From Nitrospirales bacterium (GTDB lineage: Bacteria; Nitrospirota; Nitrospiria; Nitrospirales; UBA8639): a DNA stretch of 64,000 nt. Of the stretch, positions 3,605 through 40,001 are shown one piece after another; within the stretch, counting starts at the first letter, position 1; the number at the start of each line of letters is the position of its first letter. A program made the position numbers and the translations under genes. The stretch is from NCBI GenBank assembly GCA_029261295.1, contig JAJDBP010000017.1:62001-126000 (forward strand). Direction: 5' to 3'. The notes below the pieces were generated by a model, which was given only the letters and a program-made list of their open reading frames with translations, ran no database searches and had not been told where the DNA came from.

Positions 3605-6322
3605 TCATTCCTTTGGTTTTTGTGAGATCCAGAATCGAAGCGTTTTTTCAAAACCAACAATCCCATAGATGAGAAATCCCCAGCCAATAATAAACCGCCA
3701 CTCACTGAAAGCCAACGGTGCTGATCGAAAGATTTGATTCATCCACGGCCAATAGGTAAATACTAGTTGTAGCCCAATCATGATCGTCACGCCGATCAAT
3801 AGCGATCGGTTGGAAAAACACCCAATACGCCACATCGAAAACTCAAGAGAACGACAATTAAAGACATAGAACATTTCTCCAAACACAAACATATTCACCG
3901 CAGCCGTTCGGGCAACTTCAATGGGTTGCCCTTGAGCGAGTACCCATTCAAATAACCCAAATGATCCAACCAATAACAGAGTACCGACCATCCCAATTCG
4001 GTAGACCAGCGTACTCGTTAATATGGAGGTTTGTGGATCGCGAGGCGGTCGGGCCATCAGGCCCGGCTCTTTTGGTTCGAAAACGAGCATTAACCCCAAC
4101 AACACAGCGGTCGTCATATTTATCCAAAGGATTTGAACTGGAAGAATGGGCAGGGTGACCCCAGCAAACACTGCAACCATAATGACCAGACCTTCACCAA
4201 TATTTGTGGGAAGCGTCCAGGTTATAAACTTTACGAGATTATCGAATACCCCACGTCCCTCCTCTACGGCAGCCTCAATCGTCGAAAAATTGTCGTCTGT
4301 CAGCACCATGTCCGCCGCTTCCTTGGCAACTTCAGTTCCCATTTTCCCCATCGCAATCCCAATATTTGCTTGTCTCAAGGCCGGGGCATCATTCACGCCG
4401 TCTCCAGTCATCGCTACAATATGCCCAAGAGCTTGCAAAGCATCAACCAACCGGAGTTTTTGTTCGGGTGCGACACGAGCAAATACAGAAATCTGTTCTA
4501 CTTGCTTGACCAGTTCAACATCACTCAACCTGGCAACCTCATGGCCACTTAAGACTGGCAGACCGTGCGCCGGCCGAGCTAACTTCATCTGCTTGGCAAT
4601 AGCCACAGCAGTACCCACATGATCCCCAGTAATCATTTTGACTTGAATGCCCGCACGATGGCAGGTCTGCACAGCTCGAATCGCTTCTGATCGAGGCGGA
4701 TCCATCATGCCCTGCAACCCTAAAAACACCAGCTCCCTCACATCATGATGCGATATTGAACACTGATCGGATGACAAAGTTTTTGATGCAAACGCCAGAA
4801 CACGCAAACCTTTATTTGCCATCTTTTGAACTGCATACTGAATGGCCTGGGCATCTAAATGCACTAATTGACCCGTGAGATCCAATGCTTTGTCGCAACC
4901 CATGACAATTCGCTCCACAGCACCTTTGACATACATCACCTTGGATACGGCTTCATCGGGTTGACTATGCAACGTCGCCATCAATTGATCCTGTGACTCA
5001 AAGGGAAGGGTATCTAAGCGAGGAAAATTTTGTGTCATCAACCTGCATGAGAGCCCAACTTTCTCTGCTACTGACAACAGAGCCCCTTCTGTTGGGTCTC
5101 CTTCCACTCCCCAACCTCCATTCTTTTGAACGAGGCTTGATTCATTACACAGAAGTCCGGCCTTTGCGCATTCAAGCAAAGGCGGATACGAAGCAGGGTC
5201 GATAGAAGTCCCATGAAACTGAACTTCCCCAACCGGGGAATATCCTAATCCTGAAACGGAAAAAGACTTGTGACACACAAAAATTTCTTGCACGGTCATT
5301 TGATTCTGAGTCAGAGTTCCGGTTTTATCAGAACAAATCACCGTCGTACTGCCTAATATTTCCACCGCAGGAAGTTTTCGCACGATGGCATGACGACGTG
5401 CCATACGTGATACACCAATTGCCAGCATAATGGTCATGGCGGCTGGTAACGCTTCGGGAATAGCCCCGACAGCTAAGGCGACAGCGGCCATAAACATATC
5501 GAAAGCCGATTCACCCCTAAGCCATCCAACCAAAAAGGTTAACCCTGCCAACACAAGAATGACCCACAGCAACACACCACTGAAATTTCTAATTTTTTTG
5601 GTAAGCGGGGTGTCCAACACCTCCGCCGATTCGATCAGCTCTTTGATTCGTCCTATCTCAGTCGTATCCCCGCTTGCCACGACCACACCCAGACCTCGAC
5701 CCGCCGTCACCAACGAAGAGGAAAAAGCCATGTTGGCTCGATCGGCTAATACCGTATACTTGGGAAGCACTTGAACCTGTTTCGAAACGGGGATGGATTC
5801 TCCCGTGAGAGCCGATTCATCAATCTGCAGATTGCGCTCATTCACCAGTCGAAGATCAGCTGGAACTTTATCGCCAGCTTGCAAGACCACTATATCTCCT
5901 GGCACCAGCGCCGCAAAGGACAGCCGTTGCTTTTTCCCACCACGAATCACCATGGTCATGCCATCCATGGTTTGCGCTAGAGCTGCAATAGCGTGCAACG
6001 CCTTGGATTCTTGGATATAGCCAATCACGGCATTGATGAGTACCACCCCAAAGATCACACCAGAATCCACCCACTCTTGAAGAACAGCGGTGATCAGTGT
6101 GGCTGCAAGAAGGATATACACCAAGGGTTGATGAAATTGAAGTAAGAAAAGGAGGACAGAGCTGGTTCCCTCATAAAGGCTCAAGCTATTCGGACCGAAC
6201 TGTTTCTGTCGATGAGAAACCTCAAAATCATCTAAGCCTTGCTCAGCATCGGTCTCCAATAGAGTCAGGACCTCGTTGAGAGAAAGGTGATGCCAGTGTT
6301 TTTCTAACAAGGTTTCAAGCAT
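3605..6322 (-). CDS. P-type cation-transporting ATPase (type II-like)
   Basis: A 905-aa inner-membrane P-type ATPase. It has the N-terminal cation-ATPase domain, the actuator motif TGES at 173-176, the phosphorylation site DKTGT at 332-336 after SDK, and the hinge motif TGDGVNDAP near 625. The membrane-segment-4 motif reads PEALPAAM (289-296) where calcium pumps usually have PEGLP, so the transported ion (Ca2+, Mg2+, Na+ or H+) cannot be fixed from sequence. Ten hydrophobic segments fit the family. It lies 23 bp after the pentaheme cytochrome gene and 4 bp before a USP gene, so it is the third gene of a cytochrome b - cytochrome c - ATPase - USP unit. Confidence 0.95.
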   Translation of the reverse strand: MLETLLEKHWHHLSLNEVLTLLETDAEQGLDDFEVSHRQKQFGPNSLSLYEGTSSVLLFLLQFHQPLVYILLAATLITAVLQEWVDSGVIFGVVLINAVIGYIQESKALHAIAALAQTMDGMTMVIRGGKKQRLSFAALVPGDIVVLQAGDKVPADLRLVNERNLQIDESALTGESIPVSKQVQVLPKYTVLADRANMAFSSSLVTAGRGLGVVVASGDTTEIGRIKELIESAEVLDTPLTKKIRNFSGVLLWVILVLAGLTFLVGWLRGESAFDMFMAAVALAVGAIPEALPAAMTIMLAIGVSRMARRHAIVRKLPAVEILGSTTVICSDKTGTLTQNQMTVQEIFVCHKSFSVSGLGYSPVGEVQFHGTSIDPASYPPLLECAKAGLLCNESSLVQKNGGWGVEGDPTEGALLSVAEKVGLSCRLMTQNFPRLDTLPFESQDQLMATLHSQPDEAVSKVMYVKGAVERIVMGCDKALDLTGQLVHLDAQAIQYAVQKMANKGLRVLAFASKTLSSDQCSISHHDVRELVFLGLQGMMDPPRSEAIRAVQTCHRAGIQVKMITGDHVGTAVAIAKQMKLARPAHGLPVLSGHEVARLSDVELVKQVEQISVFARVAPEQKLRLVDALQALGHIVAMTGDGVNDAPALRQANIGIAMGKMGTEVAKEAADMVLTDDNFSTIEAAVEEGRGVFDNLVKFITWTLPTNIGEGLVIMVAVFAGVTLPILPVQILWINMTTAVLLGLMLVFEPKEPGLMARPPRDPQTSILTSTLVYRIGMVGTLLLVGSFGLFEWVLAQGQPIEVARTAAVNMFVFGEMFYVFNCRSLEFSMWRIGCFSNRSLLIGVTIMIGLQLVFTYWPWMNQIFRSAPLAFSEWRFIIGWGFLIYGIVGFEKTLRFWISQKPKE

Positions 6323-17966: not shown

Positions 17967-19205
17967 TTATTGTTCAAGACAACGCACAGCTTCCCGAGCA
18001 ATGAGTGTGCCTTCAGCAGTCCCTACCACATAAGCGGCGATGGCGGAATCATCGGAACTTATTTTGGCCCCATCCCCTGGTCTCACGTTGATAGCCTGTT
18101 CATTTCGAACAGAATTCAGATGCAGCCCACACCACGCCATACCAGCACACACCTTGGACCGTATCTCAGGGGAATTCTCCCCAATTCCTCCCCCAAATAC
18201 GACGGCATTTGCCCCATGTAAGACAGCCAAATACCCTCCAAGATATTGCCGAATGCGATAGCAAAACATGTCGATGGCCAATTGAGCCCGCCTATCCTGC
18301 TCCTTGGTTACCGATTCTAACAGGACTTGCATATCCGAGGATCGCCCTGACACCCCTAACAGACCTGATTGTTCATTCAACAGTTGTTCAATTTCTCCAA
18401 AACTCATGGCATGATGCTTCATCAGGTAGCCAACAACGGCAGGATCGACATTTCCTGCGCGAGTGCCCATCACCAACCCTTCCAAGGGAGTAAATCCCAT
18501 GGATGTCTCAACTGATTGTCCTTGTGCAATCGCAGCCATAGAGCACCCATTCCCTAATTGCAACGTGATGAGGCGTACTTGCTGGAGTGGCTGCTCCGTA
18601 AACTTTGCATAACCCTCTGCCAAGGACGCATGGGCAATACCATGAAACCCATAGCGTCGAATTCCTGTTTTCAGTACTAACTCCCAAGGCAGGGCATAAT
18701 TTCTGGCTTGTTCAGGAAGAGTGGCGTGAAAACTTGTATCGAACACAGCCACCATTGGGGGAGCATCGCCTAACACGTGTTGCAACATTCGGATGCCCGT
18801 CACACCGGAAGCATTATGAAGGGGCGCTAAGTCATTCATTTGTTCAATCTGCTGAAGCACATCGTCGTTAATGCGCACCGCTTGAGTGAAGGCTTCTCCT
18901 CCATGCACAATCCGATGTCCCACAACTTCGATACCTTCCCAATACCCATACGATTGTTCAGCATCTTGCAAAAAATCACACATCCATTGAATCGCGGCAC
19001 TGTCATCGGATATTGCCCGTGAAAAAGTATGAGCTAAACCCTGGCAGTCAATCAGGACGCACTCAGCCTTGCCCCAGACCCTAGTGATTTTTCCGTTGAG
19101 CAATGTTTGACAATCCGATGCCTCAACATTTCCCCCAGAACCACAGATGTCATGGACTGAAAATTTCAAGGATGAGCTTCCACAATTGACGACTAAAATC
19201 CTCAT
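17967..19205 (-). CDS. ackA: Acetate kinase
   Basis: A 412-aa enzyme interconverting acetyl-phosphate + ADP and acetate + ATP. It opens with NCGSSSLKFS, and later shows RYGFHGIAHASL, LGNGCSMAAI, TSMGFTPLEGLVMGTRAGNVDP and GGGIGENSPEIR, all family hallmarks. Where most members have HLGNG, this one has QLGNG, and RYGFHGTSH is RYGFHGIAH, so the phosphate-site region deviates slightly. It lies 62 bp upstream of treT and 16 bp after the galT-like gene, in one operon with phosphoketolase. Confidence 0.97.
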   Translation of the reverse strand: MRILVVNCGSSSLKFSVHDICGSGGNVEASDCQTLLNGKITRVWGKAECVLIDCQGLAHTFSRAISDDSAAIQWMCDFLQDAEQSYGYWEGIEVVGHRIVHGGEAFTQAVRINDDVLQQIEQMNDLAPLHNASGVTGIRMLQHVLGDAPPMVAVFDTSFHATLPEQARNYALPWELVLKTGIRRYGFHGIAHASLAEGYAKFTEQPLQQVRLITLQLGNGCSMAAIAQGQSVETSMGFTPLEGLVMGTRAGNVDPAVVGYLMKHHAMSFGEIEQLLNEQSGLLGVSGRSSDMQVLLESVTKEQDRRAQLAIDMFCYRIRQYLGGYLAVLHGANAVVFGGGIGENSPEIRSKVCAGMAWCGLHLNSVRNEQAINVRPGDGAKISSDDSAIAAYVVGTAEGTLIAREAVRCLEQ

Positions 19206-38954: not shown

Positions 38955-39644
38955 CTACGACCTCGAATGCTTTCGATAGCGCCAGGCAACGAGCCCAGCT
39001 AGCCCTGAACAAAAAAGCAGCATGGTCGAGGGTTCGGGAATGGAGTTGAGACCAACATCACCATCACGGACGGCCCAGGCAAAGCGACCGATGAAGATGT
39101 CGTCCTTGAAGACCGGGTTCTGGATACCTTGGCTGAAGCCGACGGCCCAAGCAAAGATAGTATTAGGAGAAAACACTGTACCAGACCAATAGAGGGTGGG
39201 CTGCAGGTTACTGAACGGTCCCGGCGCCACTGACGTAATGCCTTCTTCCCAGTATAGGAAACCCATTTCATTGTCGGCACACCCTGCGACTCCGCCGCCA
39301 AAACAATTGACGACCGTCCCATCTCCATTGAGGTCCGCACTGGGGAGTCTCCAATCCGTAAAGCCCCCCACGGTCAGGCTGCCCGCCCAATTGAGTGCAT
39401 TTTGCCAGGTCATTTTACCATCTGTGGGCGAAAACCCATCATCAATTGCCGAACCCGCCCCAAAGTTGGTATCCCCTAACCACGTGATGTTCAATTCATC
39501 ATCGTAAATCAGGTTCATCAAGCCACCAAAGCCATCGTCAACTAGCCCCTGATCCATCAACGTTGCCTACGTTGACCCTATCATTCCAAGCGGCAAGACC
39601 AGGCTTCCCATAAAAGTGAATAATATTATTCGTAATTTCATCAT
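38955..39644 (-). pseudogene. PEP-CTERM exported protein interrupted by an in-frame amber codon
   Basis: The frame starts at ATG 39644 (GGAG upstream) with a perfect signal peptide (MMKLRIILFTFMGSLVLPLG), then meets TAG at 39567-39569 and continues without a shift as ATLMDQGLVDDGFGGLMN, YDDELNITWLGDTNF and FTDWRLPSADLNGDG to a C-terminal sorting tail SIPEPSTMLLFCSGLAG - membrane helix - RYRKHSRS. Related PEP-CTERM proteins have an unbroken join such as QATLIDRG, so the amber codon is probably CAG changed to TAG by one C-to-T. Without the signal peptide the remaining 199-201 codons could not be exported. The choices are a fresh pseudogene, a sequencing error or suppression. No exosortase gene is in the window. 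Confidence 0.8.
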
Positions 39645-40001
39645 GATCTCCAGAGAATAATAAAAAATACGTTTCCCGCTTCCAGCCAAGAAGGTCTTCC
39701 CACCCAACATTTTCTCTTTAAACCCTTACAGAAAAGTTAATTATGCAAAGCCTGTGCGCAGAAGGAGTCAACCGGAACATTATCCATATTCTCAATAGAT
39801 TACCGATGCCGCGCGTTTCCGATTCCGGTTCGCACGATTTCCAATGGGGATAAATAGGACAGTTTTTATTTGGATGTCCTTTTGGAAAATGTCCCCATCT
39901 GCTACAAACATGTCGTTGTCAAAAATGGTCATATTGAGCTGTTTACTGCTATTGACACCGGATGCCTTAGATTTCACCAATAACCCATCCGAATAAAACC
40001 C
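39645..40001. other. Intergenic region before the BCCT gene
   Basis: About 360 bp between divergent units. A minus-strand frame at 39792-40016 encodes about 74 aa of fairly protein-like sequence (MTIFDNDMFVADGDIFQKD), but it overlaps the BCCT start and has no ribosome site, so I leave it unassigned. A very weak -24/-12 resemblance lies at 39744-39759 on the minus strand. Confidence 0.35.

Follow-up and report, generated by a model that had tools for sequence, protein, structure and literature searches.

In the exosortase model of protein sorting, a PEP-CTERM protein without a signal peptide would not be sorted (PMC1569441). Leakage through premature stop codons has been described in E. coli, where it is favoured by a G directly following the stop codon and by stress, and where TAG is less leaky than TGA (PMC11126739); Gln and Tyr are the main residues inserted at UAG, by our reading of a figure legend that muddles the codon names. 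The gene described here lies in a stretch of 64,000 nucleotides that was analysed as a whole (the window). It descends from the PEP-CTERM sorted-protein family and encodes no intact member of it. A literature search on PEP-CTERM pseudogenes and on readthrough at bacterial signal peptides returned nothing to the point.

An in-frame TAG at the predicted signal-peptidase site

A sequence-only reading of the window had proposed that a signal peptide starting at ATG 39644 and the mature part of a PEP-CTERM protein lie in the same frame, parted by the TAG at 39567-39569 alone, and the sequence and its translation bear this out: both share one frame on the minus strand, from 39644 to 38955 (Table 1). 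On that strand the start region reads GGAG then ATGATGAAATTACG, with two candidate starts, ATG 39644 or ATG 39641, the spacing of the GGAG being a better fit to the second. The 25 codons from ATG 39644 encode MMKLRIILFTFMGSLVLPLGMIGST, a typical signal peptide, and are followed by the TAG and then by GCA ACG TTG ATG GAT (ATLMDQG...), in the same frame up to the terminal TAG. The earlier description of the TAG as standing between signal and mature part is right as to the common frame but not as to a join, since the codon takes the place of the residue at -2 in the predicted cleavage site (x-Q-A, cleaved after the A). The signal peptide is thus in frame with the mature part but cut off from it, and a single translated product is not encoded.

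The frame is otherwise undamaged, with this single interior stop, no frameshift and no secondary damage downstream, so that decay itself is not seen. The Lcl_C and PEP-CTERM Pfam matches, together with the alignment of the signal peptide with those of relatives, indicate that the frame is real. The second-generation PEP-CTERM model TIGR02595 also matches, at 21.1 bits against a cut-off of 16.

On the minus strand, the TAG borders a small perfect hairpin, TCAACGT-AGGCA-ACGTTGA (window positions 39542-39578). The RNA fold around the TAG is not significantly better than that of shuffled sequences (z -1.76), and the relative that shares the stop (see below) has a different sequence at the hairpin site. 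Scans for promoters and terminators gave no more matches than expected by chance.

Table 1. Features of the interrupted gene (window coordinates) and interior stops in its relatives
Feature	Coordinates	Strand	Remark	Basis
Shine-Dalgarno-like GGAG	39648-39651	minus	6 nt before ATG 39641, 3 nt before ATG 39644	sequence
Signal-peptide coding segment	39570-39644	minus	25 codons before the stop	sequence, translation; alignment with signal peptides of five relatives
In-frame TAG	39567-39569	minus	-2 of predicted signal-peptidase site	sequence, translation
First ATG after the TAG	39555-39557	minus	possible reinitiation start, giving a signal-less protein	sequence; inference
Mature-protein coding segment	38958-39566	minus	203 codons without stop	translation
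Lcl_C domain (PF07603)	39105-39512	minus	residues 45-180	hmmscan, 40.4 bits (cut-off 34.9)
PEP-CTERM sorting tail (PF07589)	38970-39044	minus	residues 201-225	hmmscan, 32.6 bits (cut-off 20.7); genome match
Terminal stop	38955-38957	minus	also TAG	translation
Relative G089			TAA at fourth codon of signal peptide
Relative G340			TAG within domain
Relative G292			TGA within domain
Relative G735			TAG in a column often occupied by Gln in relatives
Relative G244			TAG inside PEP-CTERM motif

Decoding of UAG and the sorting system in the genome

The genome amounts to 4.06 Mb in 38 contigs, with an estimated contamination of 3.5%. UAG is a stop codon in it. The RF1 gene prfA is complete; a TAA flagged inside it, which had raised the loss of RF1 as a candidate, proved on reading the locus to be the gene's own terminator. 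Of the long non-overlapping ORFs of the window, 15 out of 58 end in TAG, as does the gene studied here. Among the 44 tRNA genes detected none has the anticodon CTA, in a recovered set that lacks Ile-GAT and Ala-TGC and is hence not quite complete. Amber readthrough was one option of the sequence-only reading, which named an amber suppressor tRNA and further in-frame TAGs in the genome as points to check. As a coded system it is not supported by these results, and the 24 other PEP-CTERM genes contain no in-frame TAG.

The exosortase is intact (G000:C29; PF09721, 253 bits), and 23 of the 25 PEP-CTERM genes of the genome are uninterrupted, the remaining two being the window gene with its TAG and one gene with a single TAA. 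With the exosortase and nearly all the other PEP-CTERM genes intact, the sorting system appears still to work and the loss of one client to be tolerated. The occurrence of single stops of two kinds in two of the 25 genes favours ordinary nonsense mutations over an amber code. The TAA-bearing gene (G000:C6, about 18083-18095, minus strand) opens with a signal peptide, and its stop lies some seven codons upstream of the PEP-CTERM tail, in a frame that is otherwise open. No plasmid copy of the window gene was found.

Relatives of the gene and sporadic stops in the family

All comparisons were made with one genome per species. The genus is represented by 19 further genomes, and neither these nor a contig collection of 84,980 species yielded a close orthologue; five full-length relatives in the taxonomic family align over the whole length. 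Four of them have sense codons in the -2 column (GGG, CAT, GAG and GAG), and the TAG is common to the fifth alone, a relative from another genus with the same single in-frame stop. A shifted frame in relatives, which the sequence-only reading had named as evidence against its view, was not seen.

A profile built from the six proteins was run on the genomes of the order (235), of the phylum (395) and of a gammaproteobacterial class (369), and the junction column was covered by about 110 distinct genes from two phyla. Gln, expected at the junction by the earlier reading (QATLIDRG), is indeed common there but accounts for just 24 of the 110 (13 CAG and 11 CAA), next to 25 N, 24 H, 10 E and two TAG. 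Likewise, for the proposed origin of the stop by a change from CAG to TAG, a Gln codon is a plausible ancestor but an unproven one, the nearest relatives having GGG, CAT and GAG.

A genuine interior stop is present in seven of the approximately 110 genes (about 6%), namely five TAG, one TAA and one TGA, distributed over six different columns; the other stops flagged in the profile surveys are ordinary ORF ends. Seven interior stops, with all three stop codons represented, suggest that sporadic nonsense alleles are common in the Lcl_C PEP-CTERM family. The gammaproteobacterial Lcl_C gene G735:C2:2897329-2898624 has its in-frame TAG in DANYA*TSG (asterisk, stop) on a contig of 3.7 Mb. Adjoining Lcl_C PEP-CTERM-like genes form tandem pairs in G368:C98 and G367:C111, a sign of frequent duplication in the family.

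A second gene with TAG in the same column

An unexpected result was that the gene of G039:C74 (JACZVJ010000147.1), from another genus of the same taxonomic family, has as its sole stop a TAG in exactly the same column. The contig belongs to a MAG titled 'Nitrospinota bacterium' and placed in the window's taxonomic family, and the gene lies at 4428-5075 on the minus strand. Its junction reads ...GLAGPA*ATLMDIGGG..., with a good ribosome-binding site upstream. The two genes are 41% identical and not syntenic: the neighbours of the window gene are, as we take them, a BCCT-type transporter and a lipoprotein-like gene, and that of the G039 gene is presumably an MscS-type channel. In both genes the TAG is directly followed by G, and an ATG preceded by AGG at about 8 nt lies four codons after it.

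Scans of the phylum's 395 genomes with the DNA pattern stop-Ala-Thr-Leu-x-Asp-x-Gly, and of the contig collection of 84,980 species with a narrower version, returned 13 matches in all. Just two genes among these are real cases, that of the window and that of G039, the latter found in both scans; the other matches do not form a wider class of junction stops. Nor did the profile reveal a third junction stop in the order, the phylum or the gammaproteobacterial class.

In the tree, the G039 gene groups with the GGG and CAT relatives (support 87/90), and constraining the two TAG genes to unite costs 4.7 log units (p-AU 0.08). A stop inherited from a common ancestor is therefore not favoured, although this p-value is no firm rejection; the window and G039 stops probably arose independently, two mutations being the simplest account. 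The recurrence was evaluated with a model in which the seven stops fall randomly on the single-step nonsense targets of their own genes, with transitions weighted 3. Under this model, where the weighting is our own choice and the codon before each stop is assumed, 31% of trials place two of the seven in a common column (24% when G244 is left out), and the probability that the window and G039 pair shares a column is 0.030. The shared column thus stands between nothing and suggestive.

Origin of the interrupted gene

We consider it likely that the locus is the gene of an exported Lcl_C-type PEP-CTERM surface protein, inactivated not long ago by a single nonsense mutation at -2. This explanation is based on the single TAG, the two intact domains, the intact RF1, the lack of a CTA anticodon among the 44 tRNA genes and the scattered stops in about 6% of relatives. 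It corresponds to the very young pseudogene of the sequence-only reading, the best supported of the options put forward there, given one stop in an intact frame and sporadic stops of all kinds in the family. The same-column TAG of G039, with a pair probability of about 0.03, counts against it, and so does the lack of further damage downstream. We infer three things here: that the mutation is recent, that function is abolished and that the earlier codon was Gln. One nonsense mutation at -2 of the signal-peptidase site would inactivate the gene: ribosomes starting at 39644 or 39641 would terminate at codon 26, so that a short signal peptide is all that is made and nothing is exported; with about two dozen other PEP-CTERM proteins still present, the loss would be tolerated. 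A small leak at the TAG is plausible and, by analogy with other bacteria, may still yield a little protein from the gene. Within its group the window gene combines the longest branch with the lowest Lcl_C score, which fits relaxed constraint but could equally reflect old divergence. As an ordinary nonsense allele, the gene would illustrate how easily individual PEP-CTERM genes disappear from a genome that keeps its sorting system. An annotation starting at the TTG or ATG past the stop would be mistaken, yielding a PEP-CTERM protein that lacks a signal.

It is unlikely that the TAG results from an error in base calling, assembly or binning, the organism having a sense codon and an intact gene. 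A single substitution would explain everything, and the number of contigs and the estimated contamination leave room for such an error; a substitution, however, is not a typical assembly error, and single in-frame stops are also present in relatives, among them some whose genomes consist of a single long contig or a few such contigs (G340, G735).

We regard as quite improbable a leak in which the UAG is decoded at some rate by near-cognate tRNAs, so that a permissive residue stands at -2 again and a small, condition-dependent export results, the repeated TAG then reflecting tolerance or selection. The coincidence with G039, the G after the TAG in both genes, a favourable context in E. coli (PMC11126739), and the many residues tolerated in the -2 column are in agreement with it. 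Against this, the approximately 110 relatives offer just two cases, and interior stops in other places and with other codons are equally frequent; with seven stops, about 30% of trials give a shared column, the RNA around the TAG shows no significant fold, and TAG is the less leaky codon in E. coli when compared with TGA (PMC11126739). The stronger proposal, that the -2 amber recurs in the family's Lcl_C PEP-CTERM genes as a tolerated or selected gate and that leaky UAG gives a small, stress-tunable export, seems to us very unlikely; selection for the same-column amber, if real, would make it an uncommon natural example of a stop-codon leak controlling bacterial protein export.

Termination followed by reinitiation at ATG 39557, 9 nt after the TAG, could deliberately produce a signal-less internal form, and the ATG and AGG that both TAG genes have past the stop would suit it. 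We hold this to be highly improbable: the PEP-CTERM tail is understood to need prior export (PMC1569441), and the intact relative G043 also has an ATG there, which indicates that this codon is not tied to the stop. A general decoding of UAG as an amino acid in this genome, through a suppressor tRNA or a code change, would account for the in-frame TAG and could draw on the slightly incomplete tRNA list, but it deserves next to no credence and is already largely refuted by the intact RF1, the 44 tRNA genes without a CTA anticodon, the use of TAG as a normal terminator and the lack of in-frame TAG in any other PEP-CTERM gene.

Comparison with known systems

Set against the E. coli premature-stop readthrough, the window gene is alike in having a TAG followed by G, a context that favours leak there (PMC11126739), and differs in that any readthrough product of it is hypothetical. 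Among its closest counterparts are the other nonsense-interrupted genes of its kin (G340, G735, G292, G089, G244 and the PEP-CTERM gene on G000:C6), which likewise have one in-frame stop in a frame otherwise open, but whose stops fall elsewhere, with TAA and TGA among them. Among Lcl_C-domain PEP-CTERM proteins (PF07603), which are distantly like the flocculation protein PepA (NF033554), the gene has an Lcl_C domain above the cut-off and the same layout as the approximately 110 relatives found; identity with PepA itself is ruled out, its protein scoring 26.7 bits, far under the equivalog cut-off of 80. With the PEP-CTERM/exosortase (EpsH) proteins (PF07589, TIGR02595; PMC1569441) it shares the C-terminal PEP motif, the hydrophobic segment and the basic tail, as well as an in-frame signal peptide and an exosortase in the genome. 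It differs from them in that the TAG severs the signal peptide, so that standard decoding does not yield the complete protein.
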